Shown here piece by piece: positions 8,502-24,423 of a DNA stretch of 64,000 nucleotides. The stretch is taken from positions 124,001 through 188,000 of the forward strand of contig NZ_VORB01000001.1 in the NCBI RefSeq assembly GCF_007995015.1. The letters run 5' to 3'. The notes beneath the pieces are model-generated. The model ran no database searches. It saw only the letters and a program-made list of their open reading frames with translations, and was not told where the DNA came from. Source of the DNA: Luteibaculum oceani. Lineage in GTDB: Bacteria > Bacteroidota > Bacteroidia > Flavobacteriales_D > Luteibaculaceae. The stretch's first letter is position 1. Each line of letters starts with the position of its first letter. Made by a program: the position numbers and the translations under genes.

Positions 8502-9755
8502 ATGAGTGCATTATCGGCAATGGCGGAGAACCTTAAGGGCTCCGAAATCATAAAATTAGCAGGTGAAATCAAAGAGAAAATTGCCAATGGAGATACCATT
8601 TACAATTTTACAATTGGAGATTTCGATCCCAACATTTTCCCTATACCCTCAGCATACCAAGATGCAATTATAAACGCATATAAAGCCGGAGAAACCAATT
8701 ACCCTGCTGCTAACGGAATTGCTGAATTGCGTAAAGTTTTAGCTCAATTTATCGCAGAGGAACAAGGACTAAATTACTCGGCAGAAGAATTCTTAGTTGC
8801 CGGAGGTGCTCGTCCTCTCATTTACGCTGCTTACCAAGCGGTTGTAGATCGCGGCGAAAAAGTACTTTTCCCCGTTCCATCCTGGAACAACAACCATTAT
8901 ACCCACTTGGCTCATGGCCAACAAATTTTCTTGCAAACCACGCCAGAAAATAACTTTATGCCTACGGCCAACGAGATAAAACCCTACCTCTCTGAGATAG
9001 GATTATTGGCACTTTGTTCGCCTCTAAATCCTACCGGAACCGTATTTACAGCGGAGGACCTAAAGCCTATTTGTGAAGCCATTGTAGAGGAAAACAAAAG
9101 AAGAGGAGACCAAAAGCCCGTTTATTTATTGTACGACCAAATCTATTGGCAAATTACCCATGGATCGACAAAACACGTTGATCCGGTTTCGCTTTGTCCA
9201 GAAATTAAACCTTACACCATATATATCGACGGACTTTCAAAGTCACTTGCCGCAACGGGTGTTAGAGTAGGTTGGGCATTCGGTCCGAAAAAATTAATAA
9301 ATGCCATGAAGTCTATCCTTGGACATATTGGCGCATGGGCTCCAAAAGCAGAACAAGTTGCATCTGCTAAATACTTGGCTCAAAAGGAAGAGGTTAATGT
9401 ATTTCTCAATGCTTTTAAGCAAGAGATAAACAATAGATTGAAAGGATTCTACGAGGGAATGCAGGACCTTAAGGAGGCTGGCTACCCTGTAGATGCCATT
9501 GCGCCTCAAGCGGCTATTTACCTTACCATTAAATTCGATTTAGTGGGTAAATCTTTTAATGGTGAAAAGCTTAATGATATGAAGGATGTTACAAGCTTCT
9601 TACTAAATGAAGTGGGATTAGCCATCGTTCCATTCTACGCCTTTGGAGCACCAGATACATCTCCGTGGTTTAGGCTTTCGGTTGGTACTTCTACCATGGA
9701 CGACATAGATGCCTGCTTTAAAAAGCTCAATAGAGTTTTAGCGGAATTAAGCTAA
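8502..9755 (+). CDS. Class I/II pyridoxal-phosphate aminotransferase
   Basis: This 417-residue fold-type I PLP enzyme most resembles aspartate/aromatic aminotransferases. The PLP-binding lysine is K247 in GLSKSLAATGVRVGW. Upstream are the PLP-contact segments GGARPLIYAAYQAV, the CSPLNPTGTVF asparagine motif and the YDQIYW tyrosine/aspartate motif. The C-terminal arginine that binds the substrate carboxylate is in PWFRLSVG. It should transfer amino groups between an amino acid and a 2-oxoacid in the cytosol; the substrate cannot be fixed from sequence. It has its own promoter and terminator, so it is probably a single-gene unit. The ATG start fits the promoter position. Confidence 0.9.
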   Translation: MSALSAMAENLKGSEIIKLAGEIKEKIANGDTIYNFTIGDFDPNIFPIPSAYQDAIINAYKAGETNYPAANGIAELRKVLAQFIAEEQGLNYSAEEFLVAGGARPLIYAAYQAVVDRGEKVLFPVPSWNNNHYTHLAHGQQIFLQTTPENNFMPTANEIKPYLSEIGLLALCSPLNPTGTVFTAEDLKPICEAIVEENKRRGDQKPVYLLYDQIYWQITHGSTKHVDPVSLCPEIKPYTIYIDGLSKSLAATGVRVGWAFGPKKLINAMKSILGHIGAWAPKAEQVASAKYLAQKEEVNVFLNAFKQEINNRLKGFYEGMQDLKEAGYPVDAIAPQAAIYLTIKFDLVGKSFNGEKLNDMKDVTSFLLNEVGLAIVPFYAFGAPDTSPWFRLSVGTSTMDDIDACFKKLNRVLAELS

Positions 9756-9779
9756 AAGTCAAAAATCAAAATTTTACTA

Positions 9780-9816
9780 AAGCCCTGATAGCTTATCCGC
9801 TTTTCAGGGCTTTTTT
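9780..9816 (+). terminator. Rho-independent terminator
   Basis: Arms AAGCCCTGA and TCAGGGCTT enclose a 15-base loop and are followed by a run of six T. It sits 25 bases after the aminotransferase stop codon. Confidence 0.9.
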
Positions 9817-9983
9817 ATGCCTAAAGATGAGCTCCACATATCCCTCCAAAGCGGCTTACACCCATATGCTGAGCAATAAAATCCATTGATAACCAAGCCC
9901 TAGGGCCTTTTCAACTTTTTTGTAGGAGACTACAATAAATTCGGGAAGGAACTGTACTTTAATACCCAATAAAAGCCTGTGAA

Positions 9984-11447
9984 TTGAGAAAAATATTAGT
10001 AGTGGAAAATCCAGCGCAATGGCCGATAAATATTGAGCATTGTGAGATTATTTCCGCGAAAGAGTACCTAACAAATCCCGAATGGTCGCAAGTAAAAAAC
10101 GCCAGAGTTTTTAATCTGTCTACTGAATATAGATACCAGTCGAAAGGATACTATGTCTCTTTAATGGCCGAGGCCAGGGGCCATAGACCCATTCCCAACA
10201 TTAAAAACATACAAGATTTAAATACCTCCGGAATGATAAAAATCGTTTCGGAGAATTTAGATGAGCTTTTCCAAAAGAGTTTCAAAAATTTAAAGTCGGA
10301 AGATTTTATCCTGAGTATATATTTTGGTAAAAACCTCGCCAAACAATACGACAAACTTAGTTGGGAGCTTCATCGATTGTTTCGATCCCCCTTTATGCGT
10401 GCTAAATTCACCCATAATGGTAAAAAGTGGGTGATTCAGAGCCTAAAGACCATTCCATTTAAGGAAATACCCGAAAGTCATAAGGACTTTGTTTGGGAAG
10501 CTGCCAATCAATATTTTAAAAAGTCGCGTTTCGCCAATCAAAAAGAAAATGCTTTCCAATTCGATCTAGCTATTCTTGTCAACCCAGATGAAAAAGCGCC
10601 TCCCTCCAATAAAAAAGCGTTGCATAAATTTATTGAAGCAGGAGAAAAACAAGGATTGTGTGTTGAGCTAATTGATAAAAACGATTACGCGCGTCTCTTG
10701 GAATTCGACGCACTATTTATCAGAGAAACAACTGCGGTTAACCATTACACCTATCGCTTTGCTCGTAGAGCGCAACAGGAGGGAATGGTAGTTATCGATG
10801 ACCCTGAATCTATACTCAAATGTGCCAATAAGGTTTATCTCGCAGAATTTTTAAAACTGCATAAAATACCTACTCCGAAAACCATCGTAGTGCATCATGA
10901 AAATAAGCAAGACGTTCTGCATCAGTTGAATTTACCCGTGGTACTTAAATCACCCGATTCATCCTTTTCCCAGGGAGTTTCTAAAGCAAAAACAGAAGAG
11001 GAATACAGGGAAAAAATTGCCAAACTTCTCGCTCATTCCGACTTGGTAATTGCTCAAGAATACCTACCCAGCGATTTTGATTGGCGCATTGGCGTACTTG
11101 ATAACGAAATAATCTTTGCATGCAAGTACTACATGGCAAAAGGTCATTGGCAGATTTACAATTGGGACAGTAAGAATAAGCAAGATGTAGAAGGCGAATT
11201 CGATAGTGTCCCGATAGATCAAATTCCCGCGGAGGTTAAGAAAGTTGCCCTTAAATCTACCCAGCCAATTGGCAACGGCCTTTATGGAGTGGACATAAAG
11301 GAGAGTAACGGTAAGGTGGTAGTTATAGAGGTGAATGACAATCCCAATGTAGACCACGGCGTGGAAGATCACCTAGAGGGAAATGTGGTTTACAGCAAAA
11401 TAATTGCAAGTATTAAAAGGAGAATTCAAGCGCAAATAAAGCCATGA
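9984..11447 (+). CDS. RimK-like ATP-grasp ligase with RLAN-type N-terminal domain
   Basis: Residues 1-190 resemble the RLAN domain found fused to RimK-like ligases (FNLSTEYRYQSKGYYVSLMAEARGHRPIP is its hallmark region). Residues 200-480 form an ATP-grasp fold: the ATP-binding lysine strand VVLKSPDSSFSQGV, the adenine-hinge region VIAQEYLP, and the metal-binding end VVVIEVNDNPNVDHGVED. ATP-grasp enzymes of this group join a carboxylate to an amine through an acyl phosphate. The start is a TTG that places the conserved N-terminus MRKILVVENPAQWP; no better ATG lies upstream. The stop overlaps the next start (ATGA), so it is coupled to the GCS2-like gene. The substrate is unknown. Confidence 0.85.
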   Translation: MRKILVVENPAQWPINIEHCEIISAKEYLTNPEWSQVKNARVFNLSTEYRYQSKGYYVSLMAEARGHRPIPNIKNIQDLNTSGMIKIVSENLDELFQKSFKNLKSEDFILSIYFGKNLAKQYDKLSWELHRLFRSPFMRAKFTHNGKKWVIQSLKTIPFKEIPESHKDFVWEAANQYFKKSRFANQKENAFQFDLAILVNPDEKAPPSNKKALHKFIEAGEKQGLCVELIDKNDYARLLEFDALFIRETTAVNHYTYRFARRAQQEGMVVIDDPESILKCANKVYLAEFLKLHKIPTPKTIVVHHENKQDVLHQLNLPVVLKSPDSSFSQGVSKAKTEEEYREKIAKLLAHSDLVIAQEYLPSDFDWRIGVLDNEIIFACKYYMAKGHWQIYNWDSKNKQDVEGEFDSVPIDQIPAEVKKVALKSTQPIGNGLYGVDIKESNGKVVVIEVNDNPNVDHGVEDHLEGNVVYSKIIASIKRRIQAQIKP

Positions 11448-12667
11448 GTTATAAATTATTCGAAGTATTCGGTGTGGAGCTAGAATACATGATCGTAGAT
11501 AAAACCACCTTTAAAGTAAAACCCATAGCCGACCTAGTTTTTAAAGAATGTACAGGCTCCTTTACTTCAGATTATGAAAACGGAACCGTAGCCTGGAGTA
11601 ATGAATTGGTTTCGCACGTCATAGAAATAAAAACCAATGGCCCCGTAAAGGAAATGGGCCCCATGGCAGAGGCATTTCACAGTAATGTGACCGCTATTAA
11701 TAAACTTTTGGAAAAGCACAATGCCATTCTTATGCCAGGTGGTGCGCATCCTACCGTAGACCCTTTAACGGAGACTAAAATTTGGCCGCACGAATACAAT
11801 GAAATTTACGCCCTTTACGATAGGGTGTTTAACTGTAAAGGTCATGGATGGAGCAATTTACAAAGTACCCATATCAACCTACCCTTTCAAGGAGATGGTG
11901 AGTTCCGCAAATTGCATGCTGCGATCCGAGCAATTTTACCCTTCATCCCTGCCCTTACGGCAAGCACACCCATTTTAGATGGTGCGCTGAGTGGATTTAA
12001 AGACACTCGACTGGAATATTACCGGAAAAACCAGCAAAAGATCCCCATTATCGCTGGAAAAGTAATTCCTGAGCCAGTTTACAGTAAGGAAGCCTACCAT
12101 CAAAAAATCTTTAACCCAATTAAAGATGCTATCCGTCCCTTTGATTCTGAGGGTATTTTAGATCATCACTTCCTAAATTCTAGGGGAGCCATTGCACGCT
12201 TTGATAGAGGTGCCATTGAGATTCGAATAATCGACAATCAAGAAGCTCCAAAAGTGGATATCGCCATCTTATGCCTAATTGTGGCGGTTCTAAAAGATTT
12301 ATGCCAGCAGTCGGAGGCGGAAATATCAAAATTGGCTCTGTTGGATACCGATTTGCTTGCACAACAATTGTTAGCGGCAATAAAAGATGCAGAGAAGGCA
12401 AAAACGACTTACCCAGACTTGACAAAGCATTTGGGAATTGATGAAAAGGTGGAAAATCTCGGAGAGGTATGGAAACAACTGCTGAACAGATATAAGACAT
12501 CACTTACCGCAGACCAATTTAACACGCTAAGCTACATCGTTGAAAATGGAAGTCTTGCTAGCAGGATGGAATCTAGATTCAACGCCAACCCCAACGCACA
12601 GGGCATAGCTGAAATTAATAAAGAAATGATTCGCTGTTTGCAGCATAATGCACTATTTACCAAATGA
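11444..12667 (+). CDS. GCS2-family carboxylate-amine ligase (glutamate-cysteine ligase-like)
   Basis: The 407-residue product has the glutamine-synthetase-like fold of the GCS2/YbdK family. Signatures are FGVELEYMIVD at the N-terminus with the metal-binding glutamates, then HGWSNLQSTHINLPF, the segment TASTPILDGALSGFKDTRLEYY, and RGAIEIRIIDNQEAP. Family members ligate glutamate to an amine (cysteine in GshA, unknown in YbdK). It starts in an ATGA overlap with the ATP-grasp gene and ends in an ATGA overlap with the amidohydrolase-like gene, so the three are almost certainly made together. A role in glutathione synthesis is possible, but the partner here is RimK-like and no GshB-type protein is evident. 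Confidence 0.87.
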   Translation: MSYKLFEVFGVELEYMIVDKTTFKVKPIADLVFKECTGSFTSDYENGTVAWSNELVSHVIEIKTNGPVKEMGPMAEAFHSNVTAINKLLEKHNAILMPGGAHPTVDPLTETKIWPHEYNEIYALYDRVFNCKGHGWSNLQSTHINLPFQGDGEFRKLHAAIRAILPFIPALTASTPILDGALSGFKDTRLEYYRKNQQKIPIIAGKVIPEPVYSKEAYHQKIFNPIKDAIRPFDSEGILDHHFLNSRGAIARFDRGAIEIRIIDNQEAPKVDIAILCLIVAVLKDLCQQSEAEISKLALLDTDLLAQQLLAAIKDAEKAKTTYPDLTKHLGIDEKVENLGEVWKQLLNRYKTSLTADQFNTLSYIVENGSLASRMESRFNANPNAQGIAEINKEMIRCLQHNALFTK

Positions 12668-13335
12668 ATTTAATAATCAGTTGCGAACACTACAGCAATG
12701 AATTGCCCCATGAATTCAGCAATCTTTTTGCACAAAATGAGAAGGTTGCTGAAACGCATCGGGCGTACGACATAGGTGCAAAACTCATTTTTAGTGGACT
12801 ACAAAAGCTGGCTTTCGCAAGTTTTTATTATCCCTATTCTAGATTATTAATAGAAGTAAACCGGTCCTTACATCACCCCAAACTGTTTTCGGAGTTTTCT
12901 AAAAAGCTAGATAAGCAAACAAGAAAAAACCTAATTAACTCTTATTATTTACCCTACAGAAATAAAGTAGAAAAAGCCTGTTGGGGACAAATTGTTGAAG
13001 GGAAGGAATTCCTTCATCTTTCTGTCCATAGCTTTACACCAGTATTAGGAAATGAAATTCGGAATGCAGATATCGGATTATTGTACGACCCAAAAAACCC
13101 TATAGAAAGAGAGTTTGCGAAAAAATTTAAGGAGTCGATACGAGCTATAGATCCAAATTTGAAAGTGCGATTTAACTACCCCTATTTGGGAACTGCAGAT
13201 GGATTTACCACGTATTTGAGGAAAAAATTAGGCCCAAAATACGCAGGAATAGAATTGGAGGTTAAAAACGATGTAATTAATAATCAAATCATTGAAACGC
13301 TGTACAAAAGCTTGCAAAAGGTGATAAGAGAATAA
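12664..13335 (+). CDS. N-formylglutamate amidohydrolase-like protein
   Basis: The 223-residue protein carries the N-formylglutamate amidohydrolase family motifs: LIISCEHYSNELP at the start, then THRAYDIGA, the arginine/asparagine motif SRLLIEVNRSLHH, the VHSFTPV motif, and GLLYDP. The closing segment YAGIELEVKND fits the family's terminal glutamate motif. Known members hydrolyse N-formylglutamate in histidine breakdown, but no hut genes are nearby. Here it is the last gene of a coupled trio with two amide-forming ligases, so it more likely trims or releases an N-acyl or gamma-linked product (inference). No clear terminator follows; a heptamer repeat occupies the gap. Confidence 0.82.
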   Translation: MNLIISCEHYSNELPHEFSNLFAQNEKVAETHRAYDIGAKLIFSGLQKLAFASFYYPYSRLLIEVNRSLHHPKLFSEFSKKLDKQTRKNLINSYYLPYRNKVEKACWGQIVEGKEFLHLSVHSFTPVLGNEIRNADIGLLYDPKNPIEREFAKKFKESIRAIDPNLKVRFNYPYLGTADGFTTYLRKKLGPKYAGIELEVKNDVINNQIIETLYKSLQKVIRE

Positions 13336-13358: not shown

Positions 13359-13389
13359 CTACGAGCTACGAGCTACGAACTACGAGCTA
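13359..13389. repeat. 7-bp tandem repeat, CTACGAG, about 4.4 copies
   Basis: The unit CTACGAG occurs at 13359, 13366, 13373 (as CTACGAA) and 13380, with a partial copy after it. It lies in the short gap between the amide-ligase operon and the convergent pth gene. Confidence 0.9.
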
Positions 13390-16358: not shown

Positions 16359-17957
16359 ATGAAATCGCTTCGTTTTTTCCTACCTCTAGTTTTTGCCGCA
16401 ACTCTAATTCTAGGTGTATGGATGGGGTTTTACTTGGCCAATAACATTGGATCTAAAAACATTGAATTCATAATCCCCACAGGAAGCAACAACAAACTTT
16501 CCCGGATTATAAACTACATAGACGAAAACTATGTAGATACCGTCGCGAAGGAGCGTCTTATTGATAAAGCCATTAAAACGGTTCTCGAAGAATTAGACCC
16601 ACACTCCTACTACATTAGCAAAGAAGATTTTAATGCCATTAATGAACCTCTTGAAGGAAATTTTGAAGGGATAGGGATAGAGTTTGTAGTAAATAAAGAC
16701 ACACTGCACGTAGTACACACCATAGCCGGAGGTCCATCGGAACAAGCTGGATTAATACCTGGAGACCAAATTATTGTGGTTGAAAATGACACCATAGCTG
16801 GTGTGGGAATTAAGAACTCCGAAGTGGTTAAACTTCTTCGCGGGAGAAAAGGCTCCATCGTTAACATTAAAGTAAGAAGGAAGGGCGAAGACAAACTGAT
16901 TCCCGTTGAAATTACTCGGGACGAAATTCCGATAAAAAGCGTAGACGCCGCGTTGGGCGTAAACGACACCACAGGATACATTAAAATCAGTCGATTTGCG
17001 AAAACGACCTACGAAGAGTTTATGGGTGCAATGGATTCTTTGTCCGCAAGCCATCCAAATATCCAACACCTAGTTATCGACCTTAGAAATAATGGAGGGG
17101 GGTATCTAGACGCTGCCATTAAAATTTGCGAACAACTCCTACCCAAGGGCAAACTAATTGTGTACACCCAAGGCAAAGGCAATAAACGAGAGTATTTTTC
17201 GAAGAAAGAAGGTAAGTATCAAAACATCCATCTAACAGTTCTTATCAATGAATTTTCCGCCTCAGCCTCAGAAATTGTTGCGGGAGCCATTCAGGATCAC
17301 GACCGTGGGACTATAGTAGGTAGAAGATCTTTTGGTAAAGGGTTGGTTCAAGAACAATTGAGTCTTAAAGATAATTCCGCCCTTAGACTTACCGTTGCTA
17401 GATATTACACTCCAACAGGGCGCTGTATACAAAAACCCTACGGGGGTAACATAGATTACGACGAAGATTATTACCTCCGCTACGAAAGTGGGGAACTCTT
17501 CCACAGAGATAGCATAAAGGTTACGGACTCGCTTAAATTCACCACACCAAAGGGTAAAATTGTTTACGGTGGAGGTGGTATAATTCCCGATGTTTTTGTC
17601 CCTTTAGACACTACAGGGAATTCAGAAATTCTATCTGGGTTTGTATACGTAGGGAATATGAATGCTTTCGGTTTCAACTACGCTAACAAACAACGTAAAG
17701 AATTAGAAGCTATGGGACTGGAGTCCTTCCTTAACGGTTTCACCATTCCAGACACAATAGTAGACCGCATGTTGAAAGAAATTTCTGCTTCAAAATCTCA
17801 GTATAAAAAACTAAGTGCTGACCAAAAGGAGCGAATAAACGAAAGATTTAGAGGTATCGTGGCGCGCCATATTTGGAATAGTAAAGGCTTCTACCTCAAC
17901 AGTCTTAGAAGAGATACTATGTTAACAAGTCTGGGGTTCTTTAACGAAGCACCGTAA
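16359..17957 (+). CDS. C-terminal processing peptidase, S41 family
   Basis: This 532-residue periplasmic serine protease has an N-terminal membrane anchor/signal segment (LRFFLPLVFAATLILGVWMG). A PDZ domain spans about residues 90-180 (GIGIEFVVNKDTLHVVHTIAGGPSEQAGL). The S41 core follows. The catalytic pair is predicted as S302 in FSASASEIV and K327 in RRSFGKGLVQ, 25 residues apart as in CtpA/Prc. Such enzymes trim C-termini of exported or damaged proteins. Its last 17 bases overlap the convergent end of the giant T9SS protein gene on the minus strand. The neighbour upstream is dCMP deaminase, with no functional link that I know of. Confidence 0.94.
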   Translation: MKSLRFFLPLVFAATLILGVWMGFYLANNIGSKNIEFIIPTGSNNKLSRIINYIDENYVDTVAKERLIDKAIKTVLEELDPHSYYISKEDFNAINEPLEGNFEGIGIEFVVNKDTLHVVHTIAGGPSEQAGLIPGDQIIVVENDTIAGVGIKNSEVVKLLRGRKGSIVNIKVRRKGEDKLIPVEITRDEIPIKSVDAALGVNDTTGYIKISRFAKTTYEEFMGAMDSLSASHPNIQHLVIDLRNNGGGYLDAAIKICEQLLPKGKLIVYTQGKGNKREYFSKKEGKYQNIHLTVLINEFSASASEIVAGAIQDHDRGTIVGRRSFGKGLVQEQLSLKDNSALRLTVARYYTPTGRCIQKPYGGNIDYDEDYYLRYESGELFHRDSIKVTDSLKFTTPKGKIVYGGGGIIPDVFVPLDTTGNSEILSGFVYVGNMNAFGFNYANKQRKELEAMGLESFLNGFTIPDTIVDRMLKEISASKSQYKKLSADQKERINERFRGIVARHIWNSKGFYLNSLRRDTMLTSLGFFNEAP

Positions 17958-20900
17958 CCATTCCATCCACGAAGCCTTTGGTTCCATCGGTTCGGATGTA
18001 AGTGAATTTAACCGGGTAAATGCCATTGTCTACCAGTTGGCCCAAATAGGTACCATCCCAAGGTTCGTCTGCATGGGTGAAACTGTACACAAGCTCTCCC
18101 CATCGATTGAAAATCTGCCCTTTCCAGCTTAAAATGTCTTCTGCAACAGGGTAATATCTATCGTTAATCCCATCTCCATCTGGAGAGAAGGAATTGGGAA
18201 GGAAAAATAAGTCTTGCTTATCTGCAATGGCCAATAGGGAAACTTCGTCTATGCATCCTCCAGAATGCTTGACTAATAATTTTATTAAAGTAGAATCACT
18301 CCTTAAGGTATGTCTTGGTAATTCTCCTTCTAAAGTATCGCCACCTATTACCCATAAATAGTTAGACCAGTCTTGTGGAAGACTGCTACTTAATATCACC
18401 TCGGATCCTACAACAGGTGGATCAGGAAGGGTATAAATTTTCCCTCCTAACAACTGGGTAATTTCCTCACCCAATTCGCCCGTCCAAGTATTAGAACACC
18501 CTCTGCTATCTGTTAATGTGTAGGAATAAGTACCTGCATTTAGGTTTAGGCGATAGTCCTGACTAAATACCTCACCGGTAATATTATTCTTGAAAAGATA
18601 AGGGTGATGGGAACTTTCGACCCAAGGATTAAATAGAATTTGACCATTATCTAATTGGCAATATTCAGGCACCACCACCGGACTCATTACTGGTCCATAG
18701 GTAAAAGGAATTGTATCTACAAATTCCCTAACACAGAACTGGTTGGTTGCGGTTACTCGTACCACCCCAGCGGTAAGGGTATTATTAACCGTTTGGTTGG
18801 ATATACCATTACTCCAAACAAATGAATTTACCCCAACCCTATTCACAAATTCAGCGCCTCCATCCTTTTGGTTACACGCCTCACTACGTAGCACATTAAT
18901 TTTCCCTTGTGGCGCCGCTCCGTTAATTAGGTTTACGGTGCGGGAATAGGAGCACAGTGAATCTGAAATGGTGAAACTGTGCGCCCCGGCTTTCAGACCA
19001 GTTCTTTGATAATCCTTATTACCATCATCCCATACGATATCCAACAAAGAAGAAAACTGAGTGGGTACCACTTCTATCTCTCCATCTTGTTGGTTACATT
19101 TTTCTGGAAAGGAGTAGATGGTGTATTTTAAATCGCTTCCAATTGGGATATTAAAACTTCCTTGAACCGCACACATTTCGTCGTAAACCGTATAGCTGTG
19201 ATTTCCCGGACCAAGATTTTTCAGCGTATCGAAAGAAGTTATAACCTCAGATCCCATGTCCAACTCCGCGCTTCCAGTGACATTGGATAAATTAAAAAGT
19301 ACCTGACCAGAATTTTCTCCGCAATCGGCATTTTTAATTACTTCTGTCTCGACTGTCAAGGGGGGTAAGTCCTTTATTACGAAGGGTACGGTTTCTTTAC
19401 AGATCGCTCCTGCCACGGTAAGAAAATAGACGCCGGGAGCCAAATTACTGTGCTCCAACTTATTCCCCATTTCTGGTTTATTCCATGAAATTAGGTAAGG
19501 CGCCTCCTCTCCACTTACTTCGATTTTGAGGTAACCATTATTCTCACCGCAAGTTGCATCTAGCTTAGATGTTTGCAAGATCAATGGACTCGTGGGTTTA
19601 TTTTCTAAAATCACTGTATCCAACATGGTACACCTGCCATCGGTAAAAGCATAGGGGTATACACCTGCTGAAAGGTTATACCTGTTAAATCCGTTGGAAA
19701 AATTATCGGCCCAAACAATGGAGAAAGGAGCTAACCCTGTAGGGCTGGCCTGAATAGATCCATTTCTATTTCCGCAAGACTCTGGAGTTAAGTCGGGATT
19801 TAATTTTGGTGCTTCAATTTCGTGCACCCTAAAAGTTCCCGATGTGGCACAATAACCATCGTTAATGGTAAAAGTATGCAAGCCAGGCCAAAGACCTTTA
19901 ACCGTGTCGCTTACAGTGCTGCCCGTGCTATCGGTAAAAGTAAATTGCCCGGTACTGCTGTTACCCGATAAAATAACCTGACCATTCGCCTCTTCGCAAG
20001 TAGCCTCATTGCTAACGGCGCTTATCTCTGGATTTGGAACTTTAGATACCAAAATGGAATCCTTGAAAATGCAGTTCTCATTTTCCACCTCAAAGGATAT
20101 CCATCCAGAATCCAATCCACCTATTTGATTGCTGGTGTTTTCAGGATTTCCAATCCATCGATAGATATAGCTTCCTTGAGGATTGGGAATAATCTCCGCT
20201 TCTCCAATATTTAAATCGCAGTGAGTTGGAGTAGATTGGGTGGATATACTAAAATCGTTAACCCGACCCACCGATATTTCTTTGTTTACCACACAGTATC
20301 CATCTGTATATCGCAAGTGGTAAGTTCCAGAATCTAAATTCTCGATGTAACCATCATTTATTTCAGGAAATTCCTCCCAATAAAAATTGTTGTTCCCAGA
20401 GCCACCCGCAATCGAAACTCTAATCCAGCCATTATCCGCATCGCAATGCGTTGGCTCTGTGTTTACAAATAACTTAGGACTGGTTTCCTTGGGAATAAAA
20501 ATGTTAAAGCTCTTGGTACAGAAAGTATCGCTAACCTGAATTTCATAGGACCCCGTTCTTTTTCCACCCAAATAATTTGAATCTACTCTTGGAGAGGTTT
20601 GCCATTGATAACTGTAGGATCCCTTCCCTCCCCTTGCAAAAACTTGTGCGCTTCCATTTGCTGTATCGCAACGCTCTGGCTCAATAATACTGTAATCTAT
20701 TTCCAGATCTGGTATGCGATTCACCTTAACCACGGTGTCCACCGAACAAAGGCTATCGGACACTTGCAGGTAATAGGTACCTGGAGTTAGATTATTCAAA
20801 CTATCCCCATCAAAGGGCTGCCCCAAAAAGGATTTTAGATTGTAGTAGGATGTATACTGAGTTACATCGAAAACAATTTTCCCATTGTTTAATCCACAGT

Positions 20901-23900
20901 GTGGTGGTGTTAAATCAAATGTGAATTCGGGATCTTTATAATCCGTTACTGTAAACTCAATCTGCTCCTTACAGTTTTGGTCTCTTGCAATTACAGTATA
21001 AACCCCTTCACCCAATCCAGAGATTTCATTTCCCGATAGGGTATCTCCATCCATTACCCATTCAGCATTGTAGGGCTCCGTACCTCCACTTCCCTGAAGA
21101 GTTGCTTCGCCCATTTTTTGGGAGCAGTGATCAGCTTGTATGGCAATTTCAAAATCGGGAATTGGAACCGTAGGCACATCAGCTACCTGATTGTAAAAAC
21201 ATCCATTTTCATCCCGGATGTACACGTCGTATTTACCCTTCTTTAAGCCGTTAAATATTGAATCCAGGCTATACCCTTGTTGCTCCAGGGCATATTGGTA
21301 ATCTCCTGTTCCGCCTTTTCCATTTAAAAACACCCTTCCTGTAGCGGCATCGTAACATCCGCTAGGCAGGGTATTAATATCCAGCGTTAAGCGCTCAGGC
21401 ATTATAATTTCTACGGTTGTATCTGCCGAACACCCTTTTTGATCTGTGATATGGATATCGTAAAAGCCCTCCTTTAAATTCCTATTTCCAGAGGGATTTC
21501 CCGACTCATCGAGAAAAATAATGTTATACGCTCCGTTTCCTCCAGATGGGTATAGATCTATTCTTCCATCCTGCTTACCAAAACAAGAAATTTGTTTCAC
21601 AACCGCATTAAAATAAAGCGGGTCGGGTTGTGGGATTAACACCGTATCCGCAGCTCTACAGCCCTCGGCATCTGAAACCTCATACCACAACAATTCGGAG
21701 GATAAATTTTCCAAAACCAGTGCCGTTTCACCAGTATTCCATCTCGGGTTGTTGTAAGGTTCTACCCCTCCCTTAATTACAGCCTCAGCCCTACCATCGG
21801 CCAAACCAAAACAGCTTATGGAGTCTGCCTTAGTGCTTACGATAAAAGTATCTGGTTGTAATATTACAATGGTATCGCGCTCGCTAAATCCATAATCATC
21901 TAGCATGGTAACCACATAGGTTCCCACATCTAAACTGTCTCTAGTGTCTCCAATAAAACCGTCATCCCAAATAAAAATATAGGGAGGGGTGCCCTCGGAG
22001 CCTACAGCGGTAATGCTTCCATCCTTATATCCAAAACAACTAACATCTTCCTTGCTCGTGGTGAGAACTGGAGGAGGGGTATTTACTGGTTTTAATTTTG
22101 CACCGCTACCGGGAAAGCCGTAGCCATCGTCCAAACCAAAGCCATACACAGAAACGGAGATGGTGGTATCACTTGTGACCATGTGAGTCCCTTCTGAAAC
22201 CCTAATTTTTGCAGCATAATAATCTGTATTCCCCACCTTTTTAAAAAGGCCTTGATTTATCATGTTACCATCAATGGCTACTCTTCCGACTTTGGCGCGT
22301 TTTACGACATTGATGTAATGTAGCGGGAAGGTTGGAGAAATTACTGTACTAAAGGTGTAATTCGATCCCCATTGTACATCTGGTAAAGCATTAATAAAAA
22401 AGGGATCGGTACTAGATCGCGGGGCACATTGCCCACCTGTACACATTTGTACTACCTGGATAGGGTTGGTTGCTAAAATTCTAAGCTCACCTTGAAATTT
22501 ATGATCGACATAATCGCCCGCTCCATTAAGCACATATACCGTTCCACCTACATTTACCGTAGTAGAAGGGTAATCGCCGCTTACAATTCTTACAATATCA
22601 TCGCCGGGTTTAAAGGCAAAATCGGTTAGGTAATAGCTATTTCCCCATGAGGTAGCCGGGGTTTGCTGTTCCATAATATGGTCGCAATACTGGCAAGCCC
22701 CCTGTTGGCCAAACCCAGGTACCGTAGCACATTGCGATCCGCCAATTACCCCTATTTTATGGTTTGAAGTAATTTTACTTCCCGTTAAATCGAAAGTGTT
22801 CGTGGGTATGCCAACCGTGCGCTCAACCTCTGCTTTAATAAGATAGGTCTCACCAGCATTGAGTAGGGTTGTTATGGTATCCCCTTTTTGTTTTCCATTT
22901 GCTGGAGCAGATAATACCACTTCCGCAACGGTACTATCCTCCGTTCCAATTAACAAGATTTCGGCCGGTAATTCTTCCTCCGTAGTTTCTCCCACCTCAG
23001 CGGCAAAGAAGGTTCCAACGGGAGCAATACTATAGTACTCTCGTCCCAGTGAGGGTGTTGGTATAGCGAGATATGCATCCGAGCTTTGGGGGGCGTTGGA
23101 TAACACGTAAACCGAAATCTCCTTATCGGAACTCACTCTAATTCCTATAGGCTGCCTTACCCCAACTTGGTCGCAGGCAATGGTGTAGCCACCATAGTTT
23201 ACCGGCACATCCACAGTTTTCACGTCGAAAGGCAGAACCGAAACCGTTTGGCTCCAACCTAAACTGGGCAGGCTAACGGTAACGTTTGCAGTATCGATAG
23301 AAGTGATAAATATTTTCTGCTCTAGCGAAGCTGGATTGCTGAAGTTCTGCATATATCCAACCCAAAAATCAGTACCTGTGTAATCCAGTCCTTCAAACTG
23401 ATCTTTCCTAACCCATATTAACCGAGTTATGGTGTCGTTATTTCGATTGATGTCGTTGGGATTGTTTACCCAGTATTTTATGATTTTAAACCCTGGTTTA
23501 TCTAGGGTAACCGGGTTTTGAAAAGTAAAACTCCTGGTTTCGTTTTTGGTCATGGTTATACCTGGATATTCCCGGTTGGCCTGTTGTCCCTCCACCTGGT
23601 AACCAATTTCATAACCAGAATAACTATTACAACTAAAGTTTCGGATCGTAATTTTTGGAATGTGCACCGAACCCACGAACTCCAATCCCGAGGGATTTTC
23701 TGCCTTCGTAGTAATAAAGTCATTCACACCAATGGGGTTGGCATAAAATGAAATAATGGGTCTATTAAGATAGCGCTGACCGTTGCTAGTTACCGTATCG
23801 CAGAGATAAACACTGTTATTAGACCAATCGTGCCACGAGTAATATTTTACCGAATCGGGAAAACTGGTGTTTACCCCCGCGTTTTGCGTCATTTCACCCT

Positions 23901-24423
23901 CTTGGTTTTGCACGCAAACCTGAATGAGCAGGTTTTTTCCGCTATCGTAACAATAGGGTTGTGAAAACTCGTGAACATTATTCCCATCATTTTCGGTAAA
24001 TGAGTTCCGGAAATAAACTTGCTTGAAATTTTCGTTTACACCTGTTGCTGGAATTTCATCGTAATCCACCTCGGCAATAGAAATAGTGAAATTTCTAAGA
24101 GGCGCTCCATTTCTGTTTATTACATCAAAGGAGATCCCATAGATTATTTTGCCTCCGGTTATAAAGGCATCGAGTTCTTCTTGAGTGTATAAATAAATAG
24201 AACGATAAGAAACCGCCTTGTTCGCATAGGGATTGGGATACTCGTAGAAAAAATTATCTGGAATATCTGGAGGCCCAGGCACTCCACCTCCACCACCGGG
24301 TACCCCAGGACCACCGATAGGTATCCCTGGTAACTGACCATAACAACTCCAACTCAGAATTGTAAAGACAACAATTCCAAGCAGTTTGTTGATCAAACTA
24401 CGCCGGGGTCGTGGGTAAAGCAT
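17941..24423 (-). CDS. Giant T9SS type B surface protein with IgGFc-binding-like region and SprB-like repeats
   Basis: The 2160-residue product starts with a signal/membrane segment (LLGIVVFTILSWSCYG) and then a glycine/proline-rich linker. Residues about 345-770 resemble the IgGFc-binding N-terminal domain (TDFWVGYMQNFSN, then GSQCATVPGFGQQGACQYCDHI). From about residue 785 to 1990 there are about 16 repeats of roughly 75 residues. The first three have the SprB pattern SCFG..DG; later ones have C...NG followed by a GG/Y/W segment. The C-terminus (FFLPNSFSPDGDGIND, then IFNRWGELVYSF) is the gliding-motility-associated type B sorting domain. SprB is the mobile adhesin of Flavobacterium gliding; this protein is likely a cell-surface adhesin. 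It overlaps ctpA by 17 bases at its 3' end. Confidence 0.9.
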   Translation of the reverse strand: MLYPRPRRSLINKLLGIVVFTILSWSCYGQLPGIPIGGPGVPGGGGGVPGPPDIPDNFFYEYPNPYANKAVSYRSIYLYTQEELDAFITGGKIIYGISFDVINRNGAPLRNFTISIAEVDYDEIPATGVNENFKQVYFRNSFTENDGNNVHEFSQPYCYDSGKNLLIQVCVQNQEGEMTQNAGVNTSFPDSVKYYSWHDWSNNSVYLCDTVTSNGQRYLNRPIISFYANPIGVNDFITTKAENPSGLEFVGSVHIPKITIRNFSCNSYSGYEIGYQVEGQQANREYPGITMTKNETRSFTFQNPVTLDKPGFKIIKYWVNNPNDINRNNDTITRLIWVRKDQFEGLDYTGTDFWVGYMQNFSNPASLEQKIFITSIDTANVTVSLPSLGWSQTVSVLPFDVKTVDVPVNYGGYTIACDQVGVRQPIGIRVSSDKEISVYVLSNAPQSSDAYLAIPTPSLGREYYSIAPVGTFFAAEVGETTEEELPAEILLIGTEDSTVAEVVLSAPANGKQKGDTITTLLNAGETYLIKAEVERTVGIPTNTFDLTGSKITSNHKIGVIGGSQCATVPGFGQQGACQYCDHIMEQQTPATSWGNSYYLTDFAFKPGDDIVRIVSGDYPSTTVNVGGTVYVLNGAGDYVDHKFQGELRILATNPIQVVQMCTGGQCAPRSSTDPFFINALPDVQWGSNYTFSTVISPTFPLHYINVVKRAKVGRVAIDGNMINQGLFKKVGNTDYYAAKIRVSEGTHMVTSDTTISVSVYGFGLDDGYGFPGSGAKLKPVNTPPPVLTTSKEDVSCFGYKDGSITAVGSEGTPPYIFIWDDGFIGDTRDSLDVGTYVVTMLDDYGFSERDTIVILQPDTFIVSTKADSISCFGLADGRAEAVIKGGVEPYNNPRWNTGETALVLENLSSELLWYEVSDAEGCRAADTVLIPQPDPLYFNAVVKQISCFGKQDGRIDLYPSGGNGAYNIIFLDESGNPSGNRNLKEGFYDIHITDQKGCSADTTVEIIMPERLTLDINTLPSGCYDAATGRVFLNGKGGTGDYQYALEQQGYSLDSIFNGLKKGKYDVYIRDENGCFYNQVADVPTVPIPDFEIAIQADHCSQKMGEATLQGSGGTEPYNAEWVMDGDTLSGNEISGLGEGVYTVIARDQNCKEQIEFTVTDYKDPEFTFDLTPPHCGLNNGKIVFDVTQYTSYYNLKSFLGQPFDGDSLNNLTPGTYYLQVSDSLCSVDTVVKVNRIPDLEIDYSIIEPERCDTANGSAQVFARGGKGSYSYQWQTSPRVDSNYLGGKRTGSYEIQVSDTFCTKSFNIFIPKETSPKLFVNTEPTHCDADNGWIRVSIAGGSGNNNFYWEEFPEINDGYIENLDSGTYHLRYTDGYCVVNKEISVGRVNDFSISTQSTPTHCDLNIGEAEIIPNPQGSYIYRWIGNPENTSNQIGGLDSGWISFEVENENCIFKDSILVSKVPNPEISAVSNEATCEEANGQVILSGNSSTGQFTFTDSTGSTVSDTVKGLWPGLHTFTINDGYCATSGTFRVHEIEAPKLNPDLTPESCGNRNGSIQASPTGLAPFSIVWADNFSNGFNRYNLSAGVYPYAFTDGRCTMLDTVILENKPTSPLILQTSKLDATCGENNGYLKIEVSGEEAPYLISWNKPEMGNKLEHSNLAPGVYFLTVAGAICKETVPFVIKDLPPLTVETEVIKNADCGENSGQVLFNLSNVTGSAELDMGSEVITSFDTLKNLGPGNHSYTVYDEMCAVQGSFNIPIGSDLKYTIYSFPEKCNQQDGEIEVVPTQFSSLLDIVWDDGNKDYQRTGLKAGAHSFTISDSLCSYSRTVNLINGAAPQGKINVLRSEACNQKDGGAEFVNRVGVNSFVWSNGISNQTVNNTLTAGVVRVTATNQFCVREFVDTIPFTYGPVMSPVVVPEYCQLDNGQILFNPWVESSHHPYLFKNNITGEVFSQDYRLNLNAGTYSYTLTDSRGCSNTWTGELGEEITQLLGGKIYTLPDPPVVGSEVILSSSLPQDWSNYLWVIGGDTLEGELPRHTLRSDSTLIKLLVKHSGGCIDEVSLLAIADKQDLFFLPNSFSPDGDGINDRYYPVAEDILSWKGQIFNRWGELVYSFTHADEPWDGTYLGQLVDNGIYPVKFTYIRTDGTKGFVDGMVTVLR

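Follow-up and report, generated by a model that had tools for sequence, protein, structure and literature searches.

We analyzed a 64,000-nucleotide (nt) stretch of the Luteibaculum oceani genome (RefSeq assembly GCF_007995015.1, contig NZ_VORB01000001.1, forward-strand positions 124,001 to 188,000; hereafter, the window), in which three overlapping genes encode an RLAN-ATP-grasp ligase, a GCS2-type ligase, and a hydrolase resembling N-formylglutamate amidohydrolase (FGase). The two ligases are the invariant core of this operon: their genes stood side by side at every GCS2-linked locus that we counted, with varying complements of hydrolases around them. We judge it an even call whether the operon encodes a small cytosolic pathway for a non-ribosomal peptide, with two ligases and a hydrolase for its making and turnover.

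9984..11447, + strand: RLAN-RimK-like ATP-grasp ligase, 487 amino acids (aa), TTG start (PF14401 and PF08443)
11444..12667, + strand: divergent GCS2-type (glutamine-synthetase-like) ATP-dependent carboxylate-amine ligase, 407 aa (PF04107)
12664..13335, + strand: FGase-like Zn-dependent hydrolase, 223 aa (PF05013)
11444..11447, + strand: ATGA start/stop overlap of ligase 1 and ligase 2, 4 nt; also found at 32 of 112 loci
12664..12667, + strand: ATGA start/stop overlap of ligase 2 and hydrolase, 4 nt; also found at 32 of 92 loci

A first-pass annotation, made from the DNA letters, had placed three open reading frames (ORFs) at 9984-13335 with ATGA at both joints and had named the three protein families. 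We confirmed the positions and the overlaps, and all Pfam scores exceeded their curated cut-offs. The TTG start of the first ligase coincides with the start position of its relatives.

Co-occurrence of the two ligases across genomes

We searched 395 Bacteroidota genomes with RLAN and again, in an independent search, with the profile of the operon GCS2. RLAN was found in 44 of these genomes. Matches to the GCS2 profile were separated by a clean gap, with one group at E < 1e-89 and the next at E > 1e-7; the weak matches were about 370 to 420 aa long, the length of YbdK-type proteins. Strong GCS2 matches and RLAN ligases without a GNAT domain occurred in exactly the same 30 genomes, and the two genes were always adjacent. 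This test does not presuppose a link between them, unlike the adjacency found in 112 of 112 loci, which was counted among GCS2-linked RLAN ligases. Finally, among 84,980 species genomes that we scanned, at least 570 relatives of the GCS2 protein were found, and the best 80 of these in named genomes all adjoined an RLAN-ATP-grasp gene. The distribution survey that the first-pass annotation had suggested thus ended in near-obligate co-occurrence. It follows from the number of relatives that hundreds of bacterial species, mostly Bacteroidota, carry two dedicated amide ligases, and cultured members are available among the host genera (Polaribacter, Salegentibacter, Pontibacter, and Rufibacter).

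Gene content beyond this core was variable. We recounted architectures in six frames over all loci, which reached genes for FGase and for C39-like cysteine peptidases that had been masked by antisense ORFs. The two ligases were followed by FGase in 92 loci and preceded by a C39-like peptidase, the frequent fourth member, in 55. The 112 loci comprised 54 with RLAN-GCS2-FGase (three of them cut by contig or record ends), 38 with C39-RLAN-GCS2-FGase, 17 with C39-RLAN-GCS2, and 3 with RLAN-GCS2 alone. Each hydrolase is therefore an individually dispensable accessory. Accordingly, the trio is the full set in the window, as the first-pass annotation had it, but not everywhere, since C39 is often added elsewhere and a GNAT domain replaces GCS2 in related systems.

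The absences appear to be real. No C39 gene or remnant was found at 9700-10100, in the window, or in the window genome, and C39 was likewise absent from all three other C39-less genomes that were checked. Among nine whole genomes whose operon lacks FGase, the gene was truly absent from eight; the exception, G203, encodes a strong FGase elsewhere. The RLAN ligase of the window is closest to proteins from Nafulsella (63% identity) and Cesiribacter, both of whose operons carry C39. On a tree built with long branches left out and with architecture labels from the six-frame recount, a grouping of the window ligase with the C39-less Flavobacteriaceae clade was rejected (approximately unbiased [AU] test, P = 0.0075). 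The presence and absence of C39 required four changes on the tree, a count that by itself does not separate gain from loss. Given the AU result, the absence of C39 in the window lineage is independent, and the simplest account is that C39 was lost on more than one occasion.

Named hosts belong mostly to the Flavobacteriaceae, Hymenobacteraceae, Cesiribacteraceae, and Marinilabiliaceae, with single metagenome-assembled genomes labelled Desulfobulbaceae and Gammaproteobacteria. The trio also occurs in identical order in a record of Legionella adelaidensis that is listed as a 9-kb plasmid. Within the order to which the window belongs, the operon is sparse, being found in the window genome and G003 among 60 genomes, so that gain and loss or transfer must be frequent.

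RLAN ligases without GCS2 took other forms. In 13 loci, a GNAT domain is fused N-terminally to RLAN-ATP-grasp, and neither GCS2 nor FGase is present; GNAT was recognized by a Pfam match in one of these fusions and by length and homology in the others. The fused forms that the first-pass annotation had thought worth surveying therefore exist, all of them lacking GCS2. Azospirillum has a GNAT-C39 (DUF3335) fusion ahead of its RLAN ligase, and a Bacteroidota locus (L076) has GNAT-C39 beside a split RLAN ligase. At that locus (L076:5568-8189), RLAN and ATP-grasp lie on separate ORFs of 207 and 298 aa, by a natural split or a frameshift, which suggests that they are separable modules. A Pseudomonas aeruginosa plasmid carries a solo RLAN ligase. 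GNAT and GCS2 were never found together in the loci seen, and this mutual exclusion suggests that they are alternative capping enzymes, performing equivalent steps ahead of the same kind of ATP-grasp reaction. With RLAN and GCS2 inseparable and GCS2 excluded from the GNAT forms, the question of the product reduces to two enzymes and two genes.

Folds and active sites of the encoded proteins

The first ligase matches RLAN (PF14401) over residues 25-172 at 160.4 bits (cut-off, 25) and, C-terminal to it, RimK (PF08443) at 52.6 bits (cut-off, 21), with ATP-grasp extending over about residues 193-485. Its ATP-grasp residues K283, K322, E359, D437, E449, and N451 are either invariant among 30 members or align with residues of RimK. 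In an AlphaFold2 (AF2) model with a pLDDT of 85.6, the ATP-grasp half matched ArgX, RimK, and LysX by Foldseek, and the structural match in the PDB covered this half only. RimK is thus among the closest solved ATP-grasp relatives, and LysX/ArgX gave the best Foldseek match. Nevertheless, the protein scored under the equivalog cut-offs for RimK (NF007764, 32.5 against 331; TIGR00768, 82 against 143.4) and for LysX/ArgX (TIGR02144, 73.7 against 275.6). The protein further differs from RimK in its extra N-terminal RLAN domain and in its substrate loop, where a conserved HWQI segment (GHWQIYNW in the window) stands in place of the RimK sequence FRSNLHRGG. The motif C[KRQ]Y.M..HWQI of this loop is common to GCS2-linked and most GNAT-linked RLAN ligases, which suggests that the two forms use a related substrate.

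The second ligase matches GCS2 (PF04107) at 85.3 bits (cut-off, 21), as do all 33 family members. Its AF2 model (pLDDT, 91.6) is most similar in fold to YbdK and plant GCL, then to GshF and GshA, and then to PafA/Dop and glutamine synthetase, and its ExE, GxHP, and ExR-D motifs align with those of Escherichia coli YbdK. Fold and catalytic motifs are those of the GCS2 family of YbdK, GshA, and EgtA, yet the protein falls far under the cut-off of every named equivalog in this group (best GshA-named model, 39.3 against 409). It belongs to a subfamily of its own, whose members occur only beside RLAN ligases in our Bacteroidota sample. The window genome encodes one GCS2 and one FGase.

The FGase-like protein matches PF05013 at 72.3 bits (cut-off, 28.9) and aligns over its full length with the solved protein Atu2144 (2odf). 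The CEH, SRL..NR, HSFTP, and ExE positions are kept, so that metal and catalytic positions are retained; no NCBIfam model, including named HutG-type equivalogs, matched at E ≤ 0.01. The C39 family of other species retains Cys15, His171, and Asp189. These proteins begin about 10 to 30 residues before the catalytic Cys, and so short a stretch, leaving little room for a signal peptide, suggests that the peptidase is probably cytosolic.

Proposed pathway and alternatives

On the balanced reading given at the outset, the GCS2-type enzyme would activate a carboxylate and use it to cap an amine. By analogy with relatives of the enzyme, the gamma-carboxylate of glutamate is the most likely one, and the capped compound would be gamma-Glu-X. 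The RLAN-ATP-grasp ligase would then activate a carboxylate of the capped compound as an acyl-phosphate and add a second amino acid, a step that we model on RimK, LysX, and ArgX. The FGase-like Zn hydrolase may cut an N-acyl-amino-acid amide; the simplest candidate is the bond made by the ATP-grasp enzyme. We infer a role for it in turnover or editing, comparable to that of RimB, a retropepsin acting opposite the S6 and poly-glutamate ligase RimK (PMC12239564); the logic of a ligase and an opposing hydrolase would be alike in the two systems. In other species, the C39-like cysteine peptidase would do related trimming that was lost in the window lineage, and in related systems a GNAT acyltransferase would stand in for GCS2 as the capping enzyme. 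A larger claim is that the RLAN-GCS2 core makes an undescribed gamma-glutamyl-capped small peptide that is a standing metabolite of many Bacteroidota (an osmolyte, a redox buffer, or a nitrogen store), with GNAT-capped members of this peptide family in other lineages. We put this forward tentatively, as somewhat less probable than the pathway itself.

Several observations weigh against the pathway. For the GCS2 subfamily, sequence searches, including one with a profile, found no relative of solved structure, and its substrate is not readable from sequence; the putative assignment of glutamate draws on family precedents only. The same holds for the ATP-grasp substrate, the loop for which differs from those of RimK and LysX. 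Furthermore, neither hydrolase step is essential, given that FGase is absent from 20 of the 112 operons and C39 from 57; 3 operons lack both, and 109 retain at least one. The dedicated pathway of two ligases with an associated amide hydrolase that the first-pass annotation had put forward is supported, with the amendment that the hydrolase lies outside the fixed core.

One special case of this pathway, which we consider unlikely, is a product that serves as a compatible solute, namely a short N-capped peptide working like N-acetylglutaminylglutamine amide (NAGGN). NAGGN is made by Ngg, a GNAT-ATP-grasp fusion, together with AsnO. The GNAT-RLAN-ATP-grasp fusions share the logic of Ngg, in that acyltransferase and ATP-grasp are combined in one chain for capping and ligating, and the names of many of the named hosts point to marine, saline, or haloalkaline habitats (Salegentibacter, Polaribacter, Natronoflexus, and Alkalitalea), a pattern confounded by taxonomy. 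However, Rufibacter and hosts like it are not specifically marine, no AsnO-like gene recurs, and the operon has no regulatory or transport gene as a recurrent companion across families. An identity as the NAGGN synthetase Ngg was also rejected, as the cut-off of TIGR03103 (569 bits) was not reached in any of six RLAN genomes. The best score was 157.6, in G354 and not at its RLAN gene, and the window genome reached 21.

About equally improbable is modification of a protein or ribosomal peptide, in which the RLAN ligase, in the manner of RimK or graspetide ligases, would add amino acids to a protein C-terminus or to the peptide and the peptidases would trim the product. The nearest ATP-grasp folds, those of RimK, LysX, and ArgX, do act on carrier or ribosomal proteins, and leader peptides are often cut by C39 peptidases. 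Yet no conserved short peptide ORF lies beside the operons across genera, which also led us to reject a cluster for a ribosomally synthesized and post-translationally modified peptide (RiPP), including a graspetide. LysX and ArgX use the carrier LysW, and no small LysW-like gene was among the recurrent neighbours of RLAN operons. The RimK loop, moreover, is replaced, and a canonical RimK is encoded elsewhere in the window genome beside a RimB-like aspartic protease (G000:C4, L167:2589-4081); it is the sole GSH-S_ATP match in that genome.

Less probable still is a glutathione analogue, for which GCS2 would make gamma-glutamylcysteine and the RLAN ligase would add glycine or another residue to give a thiol. 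A GCS2 enzyme with an ATP-grasp enzyme repeats the logic of GshA and GshB, and C39-like peptidases have a papain-like fold in common with phytochelatin synthase. Against this, the GCS2 protein misses the GshA and YbdK cut-offs by wide margins, RLAN forms exist without any GCS2, and the window genome has no GshB and encodes BshC of bacillithiol synthesis. For the same reasons, the outcome that the first-pass annotation had seen as damaging to its proposal, a GCS2 protein that simply makes gamma-glutamylcysteine for glutathione, is unlikely. With BshC and a canonical RimK/RimB pair present, and with neither GshB nor a RiPP precursor, both glutathione synthesis and protein-tail modification are unlikely roles for the operon.

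Catabolism of histidine or N-formylglutamate, in which the hydrolase would act as HutG and the ligases would be incidental, is very improbable: the hydrolase is in the Pfam FGase family and is the sole FGase of the genome, but, as stated above, it matched no NCBIfam model, no hut genes were noted nearby, the two-ligase core is also found without FGase, and in G203 a strong, canonical-looking FGase (216 bits) sits away from the FGase-less RLAN operon. An origin in a phage or a defence system was rejected as well, there being no PADLOC match and only a generic S6-ligase match in PHROGs.

Operons with RLAN-ATP-grasp ligases were reportedly proposed in 2009 by Iyer, Abhiman, Burroughs, and Aravind (Mol Biosyst 5:1636) to make uncharacterised peptides. 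These operons reportedly combine the same RLAN-RimK-like ATP-grasp protein with amidoligase and hydrolase partners, so that the window operon belongs to an already proposed class. Our literature search found no paper that describes RLAN domains or characterises this operon. What we add is a quantified, obligate RLAN-GCS2 core, the finding that both hydrolases are accessories, the independent absence of C39, the mutual exclusion of GNAT and GCS2, and the exclusion of a glutathione or RiPP context, parts of which may already be in the 2009 work.

Operon boundaries and neighbouring genes

Upstream of the operon lies a gene for a class I/II aminotransferase, which we rejected as an operon member on account of a terminator-like hairpin between that gene and 9984.

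9780..9817 (about), + strand: intrinsic-terminator-like hairpin 3' of the upstream aminotransferase gene, AAGCCCTGA...TCAGGGCTTTTTTT, read directly

The hairpin consists of a perfect 9-bp inverted repeat (AAGCCCTGA / TCAGGGCTT) with a 15-nt loop, followed by TTTTT. We read it directly from the DNA; the pattern scan allows only shorter loops. Because the hairpin closes the aminotransferase gene, the operon proper probably begins at 9984. On the 3' side, pth-rplY-prs lie on the opposite strand, and the interval between FGase and pth holds a short tandem repeat at 13359-13389, with 4.4 copies of the unit CTACGAG. The GC content of the two ligase genes is ordinary for the window, and that of FGase is slightly lower (0.356 against 0.406). 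Rfam matched nothing near the operon except a tRNA. Farther away, the minus strand of the window carries a 2160-aa ORF at 17941-24423 that matched no NCBIfam model at E ≤ 1e-10.

Two kinds of neighbours were seen at other loci. In one C39-RLAN-GCS2 locus, a gene for an S-adenosylmethionine (SAM) methyltransferase (L042:10070-10747) directly follows GCS2, in the place expected for FGase. Six Flavobacteriaceae-type loci have, close to the trio, a GNAT-nitrilase (CN_hydrolase) fusion of about 508 aa that may be functionally linked to it; four of them carry the fusion upstream of the trio and the other two carry it downstream.

L087:3906-5432: GNAT-nitrilase fusion
L091:8950-10473: GNAT-nitrilase fusion
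L111:3926-5455: GNAT-nitrilase fusion
L125:2365-3894: GNAT-nitrilase fusion
L141:8951-10474: GNAT-nitrilase fusion
L148:3674-5212: GNAT-nitrilase fusion

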